Notes under the pieces: generated by a model
The model's input: only the letters and a program-made list of their open reading frames with translations
Told to the model about the DNA's origin: nothing
The model's database searches: none
NCBI RefSeq assembly: GCF_003611695.1
Contig: NZ_RAWE01000035.1
Coordinates: 1-61,932, forward strand
From: Corallococcus carmarthensis
GTDB taxonomy: Bacteria; Myxococcota; Myxococcia; Myxococcales; Myxococcaceae
DNA: 61,932 nucleotides
Reading direction: 5' to 3'
Translations under genes and position numbers: made by a program
In this document: positions 1-7,147 of the stretch, piece by piece
Position numbering within the stretch: the first letter of the stretch is position 1
Layout: each line of letters begins with the position of its first letter

Positions 1-198
1 TTGGCACCCAGAGCGAGGACGGCAGCCGCTTCGTCGAGCGCATCCTCACGGCCGTGATGAGCCTCAGGAAGCAGGAGCGCAACGTGCTCGACGCTCTCAC
101 TGCGTCCCTTGAAGCCCATCTCCACGGCACTCCCGCACCATCGCTGCTGCCCGGGACCTGATTCACGCTCGCGGTCGCCAGACCCCGTGAACGCTTAC
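1..198 (+). mobile_element. IS66-family insertion sequence, right end
   Basis: Right-hand end of an IS66-family element that extends out of the window to the left. It holds the 3' end of the transposase gene. About 30 bases after the stop the sequence reads ACGCTTAC (191-198), the complement of the GTAAGCG terminus usual in IS66 elements, so I place the element's end at 198. The next eight bases, GTCAAGAG, would be one copy of the target duplication; the other copy is outside the window. The boundary is inferred from the terminal motif alone. Confidence 0.65.
3..161 (+). CDS. IS66-family transposase TnpC, C-terminal fragment (cut by window edge)
   Basis: The open frame enters from the window edge and ends at TGA 159-161, giving 52 residues. 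It contains SRFVERILTAVMSLRKQ followed by RNVLDALTASLEA and a terminal SLLPGT, which matches the usual end of IS66 TnpC proteins (FVERxLTVxxxxxxQxRNVLxYLTxxxEA). This tail lies after the DDE catalytic core, so nothing can be said about activity. No start codon is visible because the gene begins upstream of the window. Confidence 0.8.
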   Translation, partial: GTQSEDGSRFVERILTAVMSLRKQERNVLDALTASLEAHLHGTPAPSLLPGT

Positions 199-264
199 GT
201 CAAGAGTTCGTGCGTATCGAGCACGTTGACCGCCGTCGCTGATTCGGTGTGCCCTGGGCTCTGC

Positions 265-1218
265 CTACTCGTGCTCCTTTGGACTCAAGCAACCCGACGC
301 GCCTTGAAGTGCTTCAGGCAGCTCTGCTTGTTCCGGCAACACGACCTTTTGAATGTTCCACGAGGAACGCAGAGCAGACATGCCCTGCTCGGCCTTGCGC
401 CAATTGGAGAGGGCACAGTCCCGCTCGCGCTCCGAAAAGGAGAACATCTGCGGGTTGGCGGTGAGCTGACTCTGGAATAGCCGCAACCAGCATTCAACCC
501 AGAACGAACCGTAGATGGTGGCATTCTGCTCCCCCCGTGGCGTTTGATGGCCGAGGGGCGCGCCGCCAGAGTAGGCGTCCAAGACATGGCCTAACTCGTG
601 CGCAGCGATGAAGATGTAGCGGGTGAGTGCATCCATTTCCGGAAGCGCGAATTGATACAGCTTCCGAGGCGCGCATGATCCCCTGAAGAAGATGACCTCC
701 GCCTGACCGCTGTCCTCTTCCACGGGGCGGACCACAGCATTGACTTGAAATGCCCCGGCGTATCGTTCGACGTCCACATACTCCCAGGTGCGAACAGCAT
801 TGAAGACCTTCCAGAGAGAGCCCCTCAGTTCTCCCTCTTCGAGGAAAGACTCCCAGGGCTTGTTGCTGTCGTCATAGAACGAGGGGCGAGCTGGCTTGCG
901 CCGCACTTCTTCAAGACTCAGTTTCGTTCCCCAGATACCTGCCTTCTCCACCGCTTCGTGGAATAGCGGGGTCTTGAAGATATCTTTGCAGAGAGCGAGA
1001 TTATCCTCGACTTGAAATACCAATCCTAGCGGCACGGCGATCTCAAGCTGACCCGCGGCATCTCGCTTGAAGCAGAAATCGTCCTTATCGTTGCTCCCGA
1101 TACCCTCGCAGGATTCGACCTTCGGTAGAGGCAGGCTGGCCGGCATACTGTCCGCCGACGCGGTGCAACCTGCGAGAAGCAGGACGCCCAGCATTCTCCA
1201 ACGGGATACGCGGCTCAT
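265..1218 (-). CDS. Lipoprotein with zinc-metallopeptidase HExxH motif
   Basis: Predicted lipoprotein of 317 residues. I chose the ATG at 1218 because AGGAAGGG lies nine bases upstream; in-frame ATGs at 1224 and 1239 are alternatives. A short basic N-terminus leads into a hydrophobic stretch ending LLLAGC, a lipobox with Cys18 as the lipidated residue. Near residue 207 is AAHELGHVLDAYSGG, a zinc-binding HExxH motif of the gluzincin or zincin type, with the second His directly followed by GHVLD as in many secreted peptidase-like proteins. There is no wider family match I recognise. It is the last gene of a three-gene minus-strand operon. The role could be proteolysis at the cell envelope, or the fold could be kept without activity. 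Confidence 0.7.
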   Translation of the reverse strand: MSRVSRWRMLGVLLLAGCTASADSMPASLPLPKVESCEGIGSNDKDDFCFKRDAAGQLEIAVPLGLVFQVEDNLALCKDIFKTPLFHEAVEKAGIWGTKLSLEEVRRKPARPSFYDDSNKPWESFLEEGELRGSLWKVFNAVRTWEYVDVERYAGAFQVNAVVRPVEEDSGQAEVIFFRGSCAPRKLYQFALPEMDALTRYIFIAAHELGHVLDAYSGGAPLGHQTPRGEQNATIYGSFWVECWLRLFQSQLTANPQMFSFSERERDCALSNWRKAEQGMSALRSSWNIQKVVLPEQAELPEALQGASGCLSPKEHE

Positions 1219-1259
1219 GAGCATGTGCCCTTCCTGCATCTAACGGTCGAGAGTAGAAC

Positions 1260-1781
1260 TTAAACCTTCCCTCCTCCAGCCGGAGTCGATGCACCAGCTC
1301 CGCTGCGCGACTCAAGGAACTCTCGTCTGAAGACGAGCAATCCGAACCAGCCGAGACTCAAGATGAGCGTCAGGTATTGAAGCCGCTCTGACCAGACCCG
1401 GCTCGGCGAGTAGGGGTCATGGATATCCGCCTCGAGCTGGTTACGGACGGCAACCATCCACAAATGACCAAAGAAGATGGAAACCACTGCAGAAACCAAC
1501 ACAGCTGCCGCACAGGCGAACTCTGCATTGGTCCATTCCCCGCGGCGCTCTTTCAGGTAGTAGGCCACGACGCCGATGATGGCCAGGGCAGAAGCGGAAA
1601 AAAGCTTGGAGACCTCCAGCTCTATTGCGATGGCCTGCTTGAGCACGTCATTGAGCTGTCCTCCAAGACGTCGCCCCTCCGCAGTGTCCGCCAGAAAGAA
1701 GAGTTCAAAGAGAATGAACACCCCAGCCAGGAGCAGGGGCGTACCGCTCAGCACCCACATGCGCAGGGAGGCCTTCCTCAT
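1260..1781 (-). CDS. Four-helix membrane protein of unknown function
   Basis: Protein of 173 residues with about four hydrophobic segments: near the start (LLLAGVFILFELFFLA), SALAIIGVVAYYLK, AAAVLVSAVVSIFFGHLW and LTLILSLGWFGLLVF. A charged loop between the last two holds NQLEADIHDPYSP. The ATG at 1781 overlaps the TGA of the upstream gene as ATGA, which implies translational coupling and decides the start; the open frame itself extends upstream to 1820. I do not recognise a family. The neighbours on both sides are exported proteins, so the three probably work together in the envelope. Confidence 0.6.
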   Translation of the reverse strand: MRKASLRMWVLSGTPLLLAGVFILFELFFLADTAEGRRLGGQLNDVLKQAIAIELEVSKLFSASALAIIGVVAYYLKERRGEWTNAEFACAAAVLVSAVVSIFFGHLWMVAVRNQLEADIHDPYSPSRVWSERLQYLTLILSLGWFGLLVFRREFLESRSGAGASTPAGGGKV

Positions 1782-2608
1782 CGGGTAGTCCTCGGTTCTG
1801 GCAGCTTCACCAGCATACACTTGAGTTCGGGTGGGTCAGATGGCTCGCCTGCGAGCACTAGCGCATGACGACTGCCGTTGACGAGGACATGGCGCTCACT
1901 ATCGCCCGAGGCACACTTGAAATTGATTTGAAGCACGCAGTCCAAATAGCCATCCCTTTTGAAGATAGCGCTGCGCTGGTCGTCGCACTCGAAGTGCAAG
2001 GTTGCCGGAAAAGGAACCTTGCCCCGGACGGTCTTACCCGAGCCGGGATTGGCAATAACCAACTCGGACTCCTGGGGTTCAGAGGTGAAGGTGAACATCG
2101 CCTTCTTTTCAGGCACACCCATTCCCCCTGCTTCCCGGCAGCGCTTCTCTGACTTGCGGAGGGTAAACGTGAAAGCCTCAACGCTGGCGCTACTGTCATC
2201 CCTCCTCGAACTCAACTCCGCGCTAATCGCCTTGGCGCCCGCTGACGCACTGCTCCAGCATCCAAACATAGTGACTGTGCCAGGCTTGAAGCCGTCGTCT
2301 TGCCGCGTAAGCGTGGTGAGCGCGCTGAGTCCATGGATTGAAGTTATCGACAAGGTCGGTCGTTCGTCAGTAGGCGCCTCGAACAAGGCGGGAAGGACGC
2401 CGACGACCTTTCTCGATGCACTAACCTCAAAGACTTGTCCCTTCGCCAAGCCATCTGGGTCCTCAACGACCACGCGCCAATATGGGGCTGGCGCCGCTTC
2501 AACGAGGGTTCCCATGAGCAGGCATGCCCCAACAAGGAAAAGCCTCAATCCGGAGTCCTTATTCATTCGTAGATGGGTGGCGCGATAGCATTCGCTGTCC
2601 GTTTCCAT
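1778..2608 (-). CDS. Exported protein of unknown function
   Basis: Hypothetical secreted protein, first gene of the operon that continues into 1260-1781 and 265-1218. The start at 2608 is supported by a strong AAAGGAGG five bases upstream; a second in-frame ATG at 2566 (MNKDSGLRL) would put the signal peptide at the very N-terminus. The hydrophobic segment LRLFLVGACLLMGTLVEA followed by APAPYW is a likely signal peptide with cleavage after VEA. The mature part has at least five cysteines and no motif I can name. GC content here and in the upstream region to about 2730 is visibly lower than in the rest of the window, which fits acquired DNA. Confidence 0.6.
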   Translation of the reverse strand: METDSECYRATHLRMNKDSGLRLFLVGACLLMGTLVEAAPAPYWRVVVEDPDGLAKGQVFEVSASRKVVGVLPALFEAPTDERPTLSITSIHGLSALTTLTRQDDGFKPGTVTMFGCWSSASAGAKAISAELSSRRDDSSASVEAFTFTLRKSEKRCREAGGMGVPEKKAMFTFTSEPQESELVIANPGSGKTVRGKVPFPATLHFECDDQRSAIFKRDGYLDCVLQINFKCASGDSERHVLVNGSRHALVLAGEPSDPPELKCMLVKLPEPRTTR

Positions 2609-2737
2609 CTGCCTCCTTTCAACGTACGCGCGGTTTCTCTGCATACGGCTTAACGAGGATTTTGCCGTACAACATACACGGCTTCGGATAACAAATCGTC
2701 CCATGTAAACGGCGCACCCCTTTCTACCCAGAACCAC

Positions 2738-2935
2738 TTCGATGTATGGGCCGCTCCCAGGCTGTCCGCCAAGGACCGCTCTGCCCTCCGGGAGGCCCGG
2801 CGTCAGGCGCTGGCCGTGCTGCGCTCGGAGGTGGCCGTGCCGCTGGACGCACGCCTCACTGCGGAGGTGGGCCTGCCTTCACCGGAGGTGGGCCTGGCGC
2901 TGCTGGACTCGCTGGAGCAGGAACTCTGGGCCTGA
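2738..2935 (+). pseudogene. 3' remnant of a second ferritin-like gene
   Basis: Reading in frame to TGA 2933-2935, this segment begins FDVWAAPRLSAKDRSALREA and ends LLDSLEQELWA. The end of the intact gene at 3007-4380 reads DIDAWAMPRLSAEEQTRLRE and MLDSLEQELWA. The similarity starts abruptly at about 2738, and nothing upstream encodes the rest of the protein. It is therefore the last ~65 codons of a tandem paralogue whose 5' part has been lost. The open frame through this segment can be read as part of a longer ORF in another frame, but that reading is an artefact of high GC. Confidence 0.85.
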
Positions 2936-3006
2936 TGTCCCACGCGTCCGGGGGCGCGTGTCCAAGGGGGGCGGGCTTGGGGCCCGCGCTCAACTTCGAG
3001 GGGATC

Positions 3007-4380
3007 ATGAACGTCAACCGTCTGCGGGTTCTCTTCTCCCATGCCCTGCGGGCCTCCCTGGCCACGCCGCTGCTGATCACGGGATGCGATGGGAGGCCCA
3101 CCGTCACCGTGGAGCCAACCCCGAAGCCAGAGCCCGTCGACCTGAGCCAGCACTCGGACGTCGCCTGCGTGAACAGCTTCCCCGCGCTCACGGGCCTGAC
3201 GGTGGACCCTCCTCCGGACGTGCTCCAGATGCGCACCATCAAGCGCCGGTATCCGCCCTCATCGCCTCCGGAAGCCGACCTCCAGACGTCGGAGGGCGTG
3301 CCCTGCGCGACGGCCACGAACCCCCAGGCGTGCCTGGACCAGCTCGATGCGCTGGCGGTCACTCGCGGCTTCCCGAGGATTTGTGGCTACAGCATCGAGT
3401 GCTACGAGAGCCTCCTCGTCACGACCCGCGGCGACGAGGTGACGACGTACACGACCGCGGACTCCGTCCGGGCCCTGCTGGGCCGCATCGACACCCCGGA
3501 AGAGGCCGCGCTCCTGGTCTATGCCTCGGGTTATGCGCTGTGCGGTTACCCGGCCTACGAGCGCGGGAAGATCCGGGCCCTTCCGGACGGGACCTTCAGC
3601 GTCGTCAGCATCCAGGACTACGACTGTGAAACGAACGTGTACGAGACCCGGCACGACCTGAAGGTCACGCCGTCCGGTGTGGTGACGGAGGAAGGCACCT
3701 TTCCCCTCAAGGAGGGCACGCCCGACTGCGTCGTCGGCCGGAGGCCCGTGGGGCTCCAGGATGCACGGGCGGGTGGCTGCGAGGACGCACGGGGCGGCTA
3801 CTTCGCGAACGCCGCCCGGCTGGAGGCCGCCGCCATCCACGCGTTCCTGCGCCTGCGCGACGAGTTGGCCCTGCACGGCGCGAGCAGTGAGTTGCAGGAC
3901 GCGGCGCTCGCCAGCGCGGCAGACGAGGTGCGGCACACTGAAGTCACCCTGCGGCTGGCCCACCGCTTCGGCGCCACGCCTGTGCCTCCCGCGGTCACGG
4001 CCCTGCCGCTGCGCCCGCTGGACGAAGTGCTCCTCGACAACGCCGTGGAGGGCTGCGTGCGGGAGACCTATGGCGCGCTGGTGGCGCACCACCAGGCGCT
4101 GCACGCGCGCGACCCGGAGATCCGCGAGGCCATGGTGCGCATCGCGGAGGACGAGACGCGCCACGCGGGCCTGTCCTGGGACATCGACGCCTGGGCCATG
4201 CCCCGCCTGTCCGCCGAGGAGCAGACCCGGCTTCGTGAGGCGCGGCGGCAGGCCGTCACGGTGCTGCGCGCGGAGGTGGCCATCCCGCTCGACGCGCGCC
4301 TCACCGCCGATGCGGGCCTACCCTCCGTGGCGGAAGGTCTCGCGATGCTCGACTCGCTGGAGCAGGAACTCTGGGCCTGA
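3007..4380 (+). CDS. Ferritin-like (di-iron) domain lipoprotein
   Basis: Protein of 457 residues. The ATG at 3007 follows GAGGGG and opens a signal sequence ending LLITGC, a likely lipobox. Residues up to about 260 form a Cys-containing N-terminal part of unknown fold. The C-terminal ~180 residues carry the paired helices of a ferritin-like four-helix bundle: RLEAAAIHAF, then ADEVRHTEV, then GCVRETYGAL, then EDETRHAGL. The E...ExxH pattern appears twice, as expected for a di-iron centre. Such proteins are usually oxidoreductases or metal-storage proteins; the substrate is unknown. A truncated copy of the same gene lies just upstream, so this was a tandem pair. Confidence 0.75.
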   Translation: MNVNRLRVLFSHALRASLATPLLITGCDGRPTVTVEPTPKPEPVDLSQHSDVACVNSFPALTGLTVDPPPDVLQMRTIKRRYPPSSPPEADLQTSEGVPCATATNPQACLDQLDALAVTRGFPRICGYSIECYESLLVTTRGDEVTTYTTADSVRALLGRIDTPEEAALLVYASGYALCGYPAYERGKIRALPDGTFSVVSIQDYDCETNVYETRHDLKVTPSGVVTEEGTFPLKEGTPDCVVGRRPVGLQDARAGGCEDARGGYFANAARLEAAAIHAFLRLRDELALHGASSELQDAALASAADEVRHTEVTLRLAHRFGATPVPPAVTALPLRPLDEVLLDNAVEGCVRETYGALVAHHQALHARDPEIREAMVRIAEDETRHAGLSWDIDAWAMPRLSAEEQTRLREARRQAVTVLRAEVAIPLDARLTADAGLPSVAEGLAMLDSLEQELWA

Positions 4381-4384
4381 GTCG

Positions 4385-5407
4385 CTACAGCACTTCCTCG
4401 CGAAGGTCGGGGAACACCTTCCCCACCTTGCCGAGCAGGTAGTCCCCATACGTGCCCCGGAAGGCGTGCACGCTCTGCCAGTCCCAGCGCTCCGCGTGGT
4501 CGTCCGCGCCCGCGTCCTTCAACGCAGGCGAGTCGATGGCGTGGATCTCCGCCGTCCAGTCCGGGTCGAAGAAGAACGGCAGCGACAGCCGGTCGCGGCC
4601 CGCGCGATTGAGCACCCGGTGCGGCGTGGAGCGGTACACGCCGCGCGTCATCCGGTCGAGCATGTCGCCGATGTTGCACACGAACGCGTTCTCCACCGGC
4701 GGCGCGTCCGCCCAGCGCGTGTGCCCGTCCTGCCGTGTCTTCACCTGGAGGCCGCCCGCGTCGTCCTGCTTGAGGATGGTGAGCACACCGTAGTCGGTGT
4801 GCTCGCCCACGCCCCACACTGGCAGCCCTTGCGCGTCCACCTCCGGGCCCGGCGGATAGTTGAAGATGCGGAACAGCACCGTCGGATCCGCCATGTACCG
4901 CCGGGCGAAGAAGTCCGCCTCCAGTTCCAGGCTGAGCGCGATGCCGGACATCAGCGCGTGCCCCAGCGACGTCAGCGCCGACATGTATTCGAGCACCGCG
5001 CCGCCCAGCCCCTCCGGCTCCCGGGGGAACAGGTTCGGTCCGTGCAGCGGGGTGCCTGCGCGCACGCGAGGATCCTCCGGCGGAAGCTCCGTGCCGAAGT
5101 ACAGCCCCTCCTTGCGGTCCGGCCGGCCCGACGTGAGTTCCCCGCCCACCGGGAAGAAGCCTCGCCACGCCCTCCCACCGAGCGCCATGCGCACCCGCTG
5201 TTTCTCCTCCTCCGACCGCGCGAAGAAATCCCGCGCCAGCGCTTCCAGCCGGGACTGGAGCCCCAAGTCCACACCGTGGCCCACGACATAGAAGAAGCCG
5301 GTGTGGCGGCATGCCGCGCCCATGCGGGAAGCGACCTCCCTGCGGGCCTGGGGACTCGACGAAGCGTCGACGAGGGCTCGGACGTCGATGAGGGGCACGG
5401 TGTCCAT
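4385..5407 (-). CDS. 2-oxoglutarate/Fe(II)-dependent oxygenase, isopenicillin N synthase family
   Basis: Protein of 340 residues, the usual length for this family. The N-terminal DIOX_N segment contains RHTGFFYVVGHGV. The jelly-roll core has all metal and cosubstrate ligands: His203 and Asp205 in GEHTDYGVLT, His263 in STPHRVLNR, and Arg273 and Ser275 in RDRLSLPFFF, which bind 2-oxoglutarate. It should catalyse an oxidative reaction such as hydroxylation or desaturation in the cytoplasm. The gene is convergent with the ferritin-like gene, only four bases apart, and no close partner gene is visible. It could tailor a metabolite, but it is 4 kb from the NRPS gene and on the opposite strand, with other genes between, so the link is weak. 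Confidence 0.88.
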   Translation of the reverse strand: MDTVPLIDVRALVDASSSPQARREVASRMGAACRHTGFFYVVGHGVDLGLQSRLEALARDFFARSEEEKQRVRMALGGRAWRGFFPVGGELTSGRPDRKEGLYFGTELPPEDPRVRAGTPLHGPNLFPREPEGLGGAVLEYMSALTSLGHALMSGIALSLELEADFFARRYMADPTVLFRIFNYPPGPEVDAQGLPVWGVGEHTDYGVLTILKQDDAGGLQVKTRQDGHTRWADAPPVENAFVCNIGDMLDRMTRGVYRSTPHRVLNRAGRDRLSLPFFFDPDWTAEIHAIDSPALKDAGADDHAERWDWQSVHAFRGTYGDYLLGKVGKVFPDLREEVL

Positions 5408-5566: not shown

Positions 5567-7147
5567 TCACGAAGCAGGGCGGCCCAGGGCATGGGCTATG
5601 AAGCGCCAGAGGCGCGCAGCCCACCGGCCCAGGAGCCCTTGGGTCTCGTGAAGAGGCTCGTCCTCCACAGGCACCGCCACTTGGATTTGTCCGAGAGAAT
5701 CGGTGGGTAGAGTTCCTGGCTGGAGGCCCCCCTCCGGAGACGAAACGCCCCAATCCGTCCGACAGTCGGACAGGATTCCCAAGGCAGCGTCCGTCCCATC
5801 CCCTCCGGTGCACTCCCCACCGGGTTCGCACATAGCGGGCCCAGGGTCAGTTGGAAGTAGCAGCGCCCCGCTGTCGGCCTCCATGGAAAGGGCCTCACCA
5901 TGAGGACAGGGTGTACCGCCGAGCAACTCGGTGTCGCCGGTGGCGGGCGCGAGGCCACCGGGACCATGCACCCCAACGCAGGGGTGTACCTCCATCGCCT
6001 CGTCCTGGTGAGGAACCGACGTGGGGTCTCGGAGGTCATGCTCCTCAACAAAGGGGCGTGCCTCCATCGTATCGTCCTGGTGCGGAACTGACGTGGAGTC
6101 TCCGCGACCACGTTCCTCGACGAAGGGACGTTCCTCCATCGCATCGTCCCGGTGAGGAACCGACGTGGGGCCACCGCGGCCACGTTCCTCAACGAAGGGA
6201 CGTTCCTCCATCGCATCGTCCTGGTGAAGGACGGACGTGGGGTCTCCGAGGACACGTTCCTCAACAAAGGAACGTGTCTCCAGAGCCTCGTCCTGGCGAT
6301 GGACTCTCGTGGGATTGCCGAGGCCACGCTCTTCAACGCAGGGGCGTGCCTCCATGACCTCGTCCTGCTCGGTGGCTGACGTGGAGTCGCCGAGGAGGCC
6401 CTCCCGGGAGCCCTGGGCTTCGGGGCACTCCTCCTGCTCCTGGGGGACGGGGGCGAAGTCGTCCAGCACGCGCTCATCGCACGCCTTCAGCAGCGCCGGC
6501 AGCTCGTGCTGGAGTCGCCGCACGTCGCGAGTGTCCAGGGCCCCCATCGCGCAGGTGGTCCACTGGCGCAGCGGCTCGCCGCCCATGAGGGACAGCAGCC
6601 GGGATGCATTGCCTCGCAAGGCCCACTGCAGCGACTGGATGAGGAGCAGGTGCCCTGGGCGCTCCGCAATCCGGGCCGCCAGCCTCAGCAGCTCGAATTC
6701 CAACTGCGCGCAGCGGACCCCCGGGTGCCAGCGCGCCGCGTCCCATAGCCTGAAGCAGGCATCCTCCAACGGGCGCAGGTCCGCCCCGGAGGCCCTCGCG
6801 CAGCAGTCGGCCAGCAACTCCACCAGCACCTGCCGTTTGAGGCTGAAGAAGCCTTCCAGCAGCCGCCGGCACTCCGGGCCGCCCTCGTCATGCAGCGCCA
6901 GGCCCAGGTTCTCCAGCGTCAGCGACTCATCCAGCGCCACCGCTCGTGCCCTGCGCGCGGAGCGCTGCACCACCAGCCCTCGCGCCGCCAGCCGCCGCAG
7001 TGCCTCGCGCACCGTGCCCCGACTCACCCCGTAGATGCGCGCCAGCATCCTTTCCGAGCCCAACTGCCCGCTTCTCGGCAGCTTCCCCAGCGAAATATCG
7101 CGCTCGATCTGCTCCTCCACGTACGCCACGAGTCCCACCCGCACCAT
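5567..7147 (-). CDS. FadR/GntR-type transcriptional regulator with repetitive acidic tail
   Basis: Protein of 526 residues. The ATG at 7147 is preceded by AGGAGG nine bases upstream; the open frame extends to 7462 but that part looks non-coding. Residues ~1-75 are a winged-helix GntR domain (LGSERMLARIYGVSRGTVREALRRL). Residues ~80-235 are helical and resemble a FadR-type effector domain (RRLLEGFFSLKRQ, CAQLEFELLRLA). After that comes a low-complexity tail with six copies of a 24-residue unit (PTSVPHQDDAMEERPF...), encoded at 5974-6405, and a final segment rich in Gly, Asp and Leu. Normal GntR regulators end near residue 240, so more than half of this protein is extra. It is divergent from the Gfo/Idh oxidoreductase gene, a possible target. 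Confidence 0.75.
   Translation of the reverse strand: MVRVGLVAYVEEQIERDISLGKLPRSGQLGSERMLARIYGVSRGTVREALRRLAARGLVVQRSARRARAVALDESLTLENLGLALHDEGGPECRRLLEGFFSLKRQVLVELLADCCARASGADLRPLEDACFRLWDAARWHPGVRCAQLEFELLRLAARIAERPGHLLLIQSLQWALRGNASRLLSLMGGEPLRQWTTCAMGALDTRDVRRLQHELPALLKACDERVLDDFAPVPQEQEECPEAQGSREGLLGDSTSATEQDEVMEARPCVEERGLGNPTRVHRQDEALETRSFVEERVLGDPTSVLHQDDAMEERPFVEERGRGGPTSVPHRDDAMEERPFVEERGRGDSTSVPHQDDTMEARPFVEEHDLRDPTSVPHQDEAMEVHPCVGVHGPGGLAPATGDTELLGGTPCPHGEALSMEADSGALLLPTDPGPAMCEPGGECTGGDGTDAALGILSDCRTDWGVSSPEGGLQPGTLPTDSLGQIQVAVPVEDEPLHETQGLLGRWAARLWRFIAHALGRPAS
5752..5777. repeat. Palindromic element, copy 1 (inside the GntR-type gene)
   Basis: Near-perfect dyad with core GTCCGAC-A-GTCGGAC and outer arms AATCC/GGATT; one base is missing from the left arm. 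It lies inside the 3' part of the regulator gene, in the poorly conserved tail. Three further copies of the same core occur in the window at 7242-7266, 37790-37804 and 37842-37866. Confidence 0.7.
5974..6405 (-). repeat. Six tandem 72-nt repeats in the regulator gene
   Basis: Six imperfect units of exactly 72 bases start at 5974, 6046, 6118, 6190, 6262 and 6334. Each encodes 24 residues, so the frame is kept. The encoded unit is acidic and has the form PTSVxHQDxAMExRPFVEERGxGD. Because the unit is a multiple of three, copy number can change without breaking the protein. Confidence 0.9.

Follow-up and report, generated by a model that had tools for sequence, protein, structure and literature searches.

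The stretch of DNA analysed here (the window; 61,932 nucleotides of Corallococcus carmarthensis, contig NZ_RAWE01000035.1) runs from base 1 of contig C288 of genome G000, an assembly of 10.8 Mb in 530 contigs. Near its left end a low-GC block of three genes abuts a startless remnant of a ferritin-like lipoprotein gene (para1), which is followed by an intact paralogue (para2) and a 2-oxoglutarate/Fe(II) oxygenase gene, while the end of an IS66-family insertion sequence (IS) lies on the other side of the block (Table 1). As the window starts at a contig end, its left flank was sought on another contig, and the 3' region of mvaS was located on C410, which stops shortly after it. A first-pass annotation, drawn up from the letters of the window, had proposed that insertion or deletion linked to mobile DNA, with an IS66 end close by, removed the 5' part of one ferritin-like copy and placed a foreign operon there. 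Comparison of the locus among 16 Corallococcus genomes, G000 included, bears out the replacement and not the link to IS66: the window probably represents one allele of a variable Corallococcus slot, in which an old block replacement in para1 was followed later by an unrelated IS66 insertion.

Table 1. Positions of the features at the left end of the window.
Feature	Position	Strand	Evidence or remark
Right end of IS66-family element (transposase C-terminal end and terminal repeat ending ...CGCTTAC)	1..198	+	
8-bp target-site duplication GTCAAGAG of the IS66 insertion	199..206	.	
Low-GC three-gene block	207..2733	.	Left edge near mvaS terminator (C410), not base-resolved; right edge CCCAGAA 2727-2733
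ORF1, 324 aa, lipobox-like LLAGC at N-terminus and HELGH motif (by eye), no confident family	265..1239	-	
ORF2, 174 aa, hydrophobic, membrane-protein-like (by eye)	1260..1784	-	
ORF3, 262 aa, N-terminus signal-peptide-like (by eye)	1778..2566	-	
para1 remnant, last 66 codons of upstream ferritin-like lipoprotein gene, startless	2734..2935	+	Own-genome search, alignments
para1-para2 spacer, 71 bp, kept in relatives with tandem pair	2936..3006	.	Unbroken alignment with G001, G003
para2, intact 457-aa lipoprotein-like protein, C-terminal ferritin-like domain	3007..4380	+	
2-oxoglutarate/Fe(II) oxygenase gene, right slot border	4385..5407	-	PF14226, PF03171

The ferritin-like remnant and the three-gene block

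The truncated copy reported beside the low-GC genes is real. In a search of its own genome, the remnant aligned with residues 392-457 of the intact 457-aa protein at 71% identity (E 1.6e-23); the match at the DNA level begins at 2735/2736 and not at 2738, and the spacer to the intact paralogue measures 71 bp in place of the 70 first given. The frame of the remnant is open from 2654 and contains, by eye, no ATG, GTG or TTG before the remnant, which is therefore a pseudogene scrap, and both ExxH motifs of para2 (residues 307-310 and 383-386, by eye) fall 5' of the part that was kept. Its protein identity is 74-79% to the upstream copies of the tandem pairs in G001, G003 and G011 and 62-71% to six downstream copies. 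Similarity alone is not decisive for the assignment to para1, as the single ferritin gene of G009 and a gene elsewhere in G002 score 69.7% and 74.2%, respectively; taken with position, it assigns the remnant to the upstream copy. Within the window the two copies share an identical 30-base 3' end. The Ferritin_2 and Rubrerythrin models of Pfam matched para2 below cut-off (14.7 bits against a cut-off of 24.7, and 13.0 against 22.8), its predicted structure (mean pLDDT 41) was too poor for fold testing, and defence-system models gave no match for para2 or the three block proteins. Two more tandem ferritin-like lipoprotein genes, accompanied by a third piece matching the N-terminal part only, are present elsewhere in the same genome (G000:C519:95074-98699).

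An uninterrupted tandem pair without the block, which the first-pass annotation had suggested looking for in relatives, is found after mvaS in three of the 16 genomes (G001, G003 and G011). Neither copy has an interrupted reading frame in any of these genomes; in two of them, G001 and G003, the remnant aligns unbroken with the 3' end of para1, the spacer and para2. The block therefore stands in place of the 5' part of para1, and this replacement is well shown. A second copy of the block occurs in C. interemptor (G007), in the same slot and orientation and 78.3% identical over 281-2697. Block similarity stops at the same CCCAGAA in G000 and G007, and in the latter, 33 nt from the 3' end of a ferritin gene come next, ahead of the conserved spacer. 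This scrap is identical to para1 of G003 at 29 of 33 positions, and none of 300 shuffles aligned as well with any of the four ferritin references (all scraps were judged in this way, by alignment score against 300 shuffles for each reference). It fits the 3' ends of para2 equally well and is assigned to para1 because it is placed before the spacer.

The genes of the block run leftward toward mvaS in the order ORF3, ORF2, ORF1, overlapping or closely spaced. The low GC first noted over 199-2737 was confirmed, the content being 0.577 over 199-2697 vs 0.704 for the whole window, with only one of 595 sliding 2.5-kb segments as low. Near the mvaS terminator, the left edge is too diverged between G000 and G007 for base-level placing. 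ORF1 gave a weak Pfam M78 match under the cut-off, no Pfam or NCBIfam model at cut-off and no relative of solved structure, and its predicted structure (mean pLDDT 33) was too poor for use; the lipobox-like stretch and the HELGH motif, both seen by eye, suggest a lipoprotein with metal-protease character. It might be guessed, with low confidence, that the block proteins form a small envelope-located complex. Their ratios of nonsynonymous to synonymous divergence (dN/dS) between G000 and G007, 0.10-0.20 overall and 0.10-0.15 for ORF1, suggest that the proteins have been kept by selection, though ORF1 is now split by a frameshift in G007.

The block genes are also rare. ORF2 and ORF3 were found in two of 195 genomes of the phylum and ORF1 in three, namely the same two and G020, where only part of the protein matched, weakly and at 30%. 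A search of named genomes with ORF1 returned a single locus, on contig NZ_RAWM01000037.1 of C. interemptor AB047A; plasmid and phage records gave no match to ORF1, and viral contigs no relative of ORF3. A Pfam scan of the block genes detected no integrase or transposase, and a search of 180-2760 for terminal repeats found only short ones, none marking both ends. A 13-bp direct repeat (12/13) at the right edge, 2722-2734, was considered as an end mark and rejected, its partner lying inside ORF1 (493-505).

The IS66 element and the left flank

The first 198 bases of the window recur, identical, at eight other contig starts, so that the contig breaks off in a repeated IS element. G002 has a related element, 91% identical over the IS end, in which a 476-aa frame bears a DDE_Tnp_IS66 domain (PF03050, E 4.2e-39). 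Ends of the GTAAGCG type and an 8-bp duplication are typical of IS66. On C410 the terminator hairpin of mvaS is followed by 22 bases ending in GTCAAGAG and then by GTAAGCGTTCACGG, an IS end, while in the window the other IS end is followed by GTCAAGAG and then by the block; the two copies of GTCAAGAG match perfectly over their 8 bp. The same duplication joins mvaS to the block. The two were therefore already adjoining when the element inserted, without any loss of sequence, and the IS66 element thus arrived after the swap, as a separate event. Nor does the block fit an IS66 composite transposon, since both IS ends and the shared duplication sit between mvaS and the block; the far (right) side of the block has no IS end.

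The mvaS terminator hairpin was considered as a possible dispersed repeat and set aside, its exact pattern (no mismatches allowed) occurring once in the G000 genome. The genes of the left border encode a zinc-binding dehydrogenase, the best solved match of which is 5k1s_A (638 bits), a structure of AibC, and the HMG-CoA synthase of mvaS, which scored above the Pfam cut-off and reached 342 bits with NCBIfam TIGR01835, just under the cut-off of 360.

A variable slot between mvaS and the oxygenase gene

A probe from the mvaS 3' region matched in all 16 genomes. The oxygenase gene lay on the fetched stretch of 13, the window included, and in 12 it shared a single stretch with mvaS; on the stretches fetched from G005, G010 and G011 it was not detected. 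From the end of the mvaS probe to the oxygenase match, the 12 joined genomes measured 7, 8, 292, 794, 865, 1424, 1463, 1560, 2110, 2855, 2951 and 4002 bp. The slot is empty in G002 and G015. In G005 a gene for a 472-aa protein with a signal-peptide-like start and no Pfam match (L043 8987-10405) replaces para1, and para2 is cut to about 110 codons; in G010, where the slot extends over two contigs, a 459-aa relative of that protein occupies the place of para1 (L083) and para2 is intact. In both genomes the similarity of the ferritin region resumes at about the para1 stop codon. G009 has one ferritin gene, mostly para1-like, the last ~100 alignment columns of which look closer to three of the four para2 genes compared. 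Other contents include a DUF4879 protein in G004, which a frame in G014 resembles by eye, and a protein with SET-domain and methyltransferase parts (Pfam) in the clade-B genome G012 (L090 8176-9408, minus strand), with SET-methyltransferase-like frames in the slots of G006 and G008 (by eye). G008 further has a ferritin 3' scrap beside its other gene, which beats 300 shuffles for three of the four references and fails to do so for the G009 reference (169/300 as good); the slot stretches of G006 and G010 contain no ferritin 3' scrap beyond shuffles. Among the slot genes of the window and four slot genes of relatives, Pfam detected no integrase or transposase besides IS66.

The ferritin pair was probably ancestral in clade A, the Corallococcus lineage carrying the window genome, and a ferritin gene was perhaps ancestral in the genus; the ferritin genes of the slot have probably decayed repeatedly. 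In the wider family, mvaS matched in 40 of 67 genomes (41 matches), and 30 loci were fetched, seven from the genus and 23 from outside it. In the 23 outside loci, the 1.5 kb around mvaS contained no match to ferritin, the oxygenase or ORF3.

Some further observations were made in and around the slot. The methyltransferase part of the G012 protein matches PADLOC mad2 (E 1.7e-19), which may reflect only a common methyltransferase fold. G002, whose own mvaS slot is empty, carries elsewhere (G002:C74:8000-19550, L093, 5110-6726) a copy of the mvaS probe's final ~195 bp together with the terminator, 86% identical and directly 5' of a ferritin-like lipoprotein gene, and three frames nearby have no Pfam match. 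To the right of the oxygenase gene, a frame whose N-terminus bears a GntR domain contains, in its C-terminal part, a 72-bp tandem repeat array of about 5.5 copies (5953-6394 of the window).

Origin of the swap and comparison with known systems

In the reconstruction favoured here, with moderate confidence, the slot is bounded by the terminator of mvaS, as the end of an aib-type operon, and by the 3' end of the oxygenase gene, and in clade A it probably first contained two ferritin-like lipoprotein genes in tandem. The AT-richer three-gene block would then have come in, in an ancestor that the window lineage and C. interemptor have in common, either by descent or by interspecies exchange. It would have taken the place of all sequence between the vicinity of the mvaS terminator and a point in the 3' part of the upstream gene, of which the startless scrap is left. 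The incoming DNA could have recombined in the shared mvaS flank and the conserved ferritin-gene 3' end, requiring no integrase, and recombination via such shared sequences would be the most likely route of the swap. C. interemptor may then have shed most of the scrap, and its ORF1 would have become frameshifted; later, in the window lineage, IS66 would have inserted 22 bases beyond the terminator hairpin, making a simple target duplication of 8 bp. With a block that differs by 22% between G000 and G007, the swap looks old, and the synonymous divergence (dS) of the block speaks against any recent transfer from one of these genomes to the other. The first-pass annotation had itself named a relative with block and truncated copy at a shared place as evidence against an island boundary, and G007 is largely such a relative, which makes the junction an old swap and not a fresh island boundary. 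The other counter-sign that it named, a normal GC profile, does not apply, the GC being clearly low.

Several observations weigh against this reconstruction. In the rpoB tree, which covers 15 of the 16 genomes (G013 having no rpoB match), the carriers of the block do not pair as sisters: G000 lies outside the other seven clade-A genomes present, the fork uniting those being supported 83/93, and G007 falls within a star-like group of six. Descent alone therefore needs losses in several species, with exchange as the alternative; in trees of mvaS, the oxygenase gene and para2, G000 and G007 do not group together as they would over an exchanged tract. The para2 tree pairs G007 with G010, and clade A is poorly resolved in the rpoB, mvaS-region and oxygenase trees. 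Between G000 and G007, dS amounts to 0.76-1.0 in the block, against 0.38 in para2, 0.27 in the oxygenase gene, 0.14 in mvaS and 0.07 in rpoB, the block value being 2-2.6 times that of para2; between G000 and G001, it is 0.39 for para2 and 0.25 for the oxygenase gene. GC at third codon positions (GC3) is 0.65-0.69 in the block vs 0.90-0.96 in para2, the oxygenase gene and mvaS, and given this weaker codon bias, which may contribute to the high block values, dS of block and flank are not strictly comparable. The same values leave room for a separate acquisition of diverged block alleles. No donor outside the genus was found for the block, and its "foreign" origin accordingly rests on GC and rarity, from which it would appear to have come from outside the genus. 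In addition, G013 has lost para1 and most of para2 without any inserted gene, and truncation here therefore needs no block; its 292-bp slot retains only the leader and start of para2 (0/300 shuffles as good for three references, narrowly for one). Lastly, the assembly breaks inside the IS, and one IS66 or more may lie between its ends; a composite of more than one IS there would leave the order of events unchanged.

Other explanations draw on some of these same points. The block may have integrated twice, in the window lineage and in C. interemptor, at different ferritin points: its CCCAGAA edge is fused to two points, about 200 and 33 nt before the ferritin gene end, a G007 deletion starting exactly at the block edge would be a coincidence, and both the excess of block dS over flank dS and the carriers not being sisters are consistent with independent arrivals. 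However, the same slot, orientation and left border would need to recur, the block ends have no convincing terminal repeats, and the difference has a simple explanation in a secondary deletion in G007; two integrations are thus considered rather unlikely. It is similarly unlikely, and perhaps marginally more so, that the 5' part of para1 was deleted first and the block inserted later in the gap. Ferritin genes of the slot do decay without this block, as the para2 start in G013, the roughly 110 codons in G005 and the 3' scrap in G008 illustrate, but the block edge lies directly on ferritin coding sequence in both block genomes, and a para1 3' scrap without an inserted gene was seen in none of the 16 genomes, G013 having no detectable one.

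An origin by IS66, or by a composite with it, that brought the block and caused the para1 deletion could account for an IS end adjoining the block and for a low GC that hints at transferred DNA, and a composite insertion would be possible in the unassembled middle of the element between C410 and C288. Nevertheless, unless the join of C410 and C288 is false, the duplication at both IS ends places the insert in an existing mvaS-block junction; G007 possesses the block and the ferritin scrap with no IS66 at this place; and the IS end is 2.5 kb from the para1 truncation, at the opposite side of the block. Such an origin is highly improbable, and of the mechanism first proposed, only the block in place of the 5' part of para1 is retained. 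A more general scheme, in which the conserved 3' ends of ferritin-like lipoprotein genes act as recurrent landing anchors and fixed-edge blocks are exchanged integrase-free between the mvaS terminator and such an end, with the same edge at different ferritin points from species to species, is doubtful and is given little weight here.

Under the preferred reading of an old block replacement in a variable slot, followed by an unrelated IS66 insertion, the swap is ordinary in kind and well resolved. It illustrates at base level the turnover of small accessory blocks at a single site of a large myxobacterial genome without recognised mobile-element machinery, and cautions that an insertion sequence beside a disrupted gene is not necessarily what disrupted it. 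The locus further draws attention to three apparently selected proteins of exported or membrane type that were found in only two Corallococcus genomes of the collections searched. Among the papers listed on Corallococcus with horizontal transfer, islands, pan-genomes or mobile elements, none concerned the mvaS-oxygenase slot in its title or abstract opening. The IS66 element, with its terminal GTAAGCG repeat, its 8-bp target duplication and the DDE_Tnp_IS66 domain of a related complete copy, is an ordinary member of its family and not the cause of the swap. The left border of the slot, a dehydrogenase and an HMG-CoA synthase, resembles the myxobacterial aib operon, which, as summarised in PMC9131029, includes AibC and MvaS, and the resemblance is limited to this border. 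A closer parallel is offered by integrase-free hotspots of horizontal gene transfer, outlined by Oliveira et al. (2017, PMC5635113) as variable accessory genes between conserved genes, and the slot has both the same borders in many genomes and the differing contents of such a hotspot. Like the hotspots in that outline, it has conserved borders and no recognised mobile element, with exchange plausibly by double homologous recombination in the flanks. Unlike them, it is one small slot compared across species of one genus, and the 3' ends of its ferritin genes look like an extra, internal anchor.

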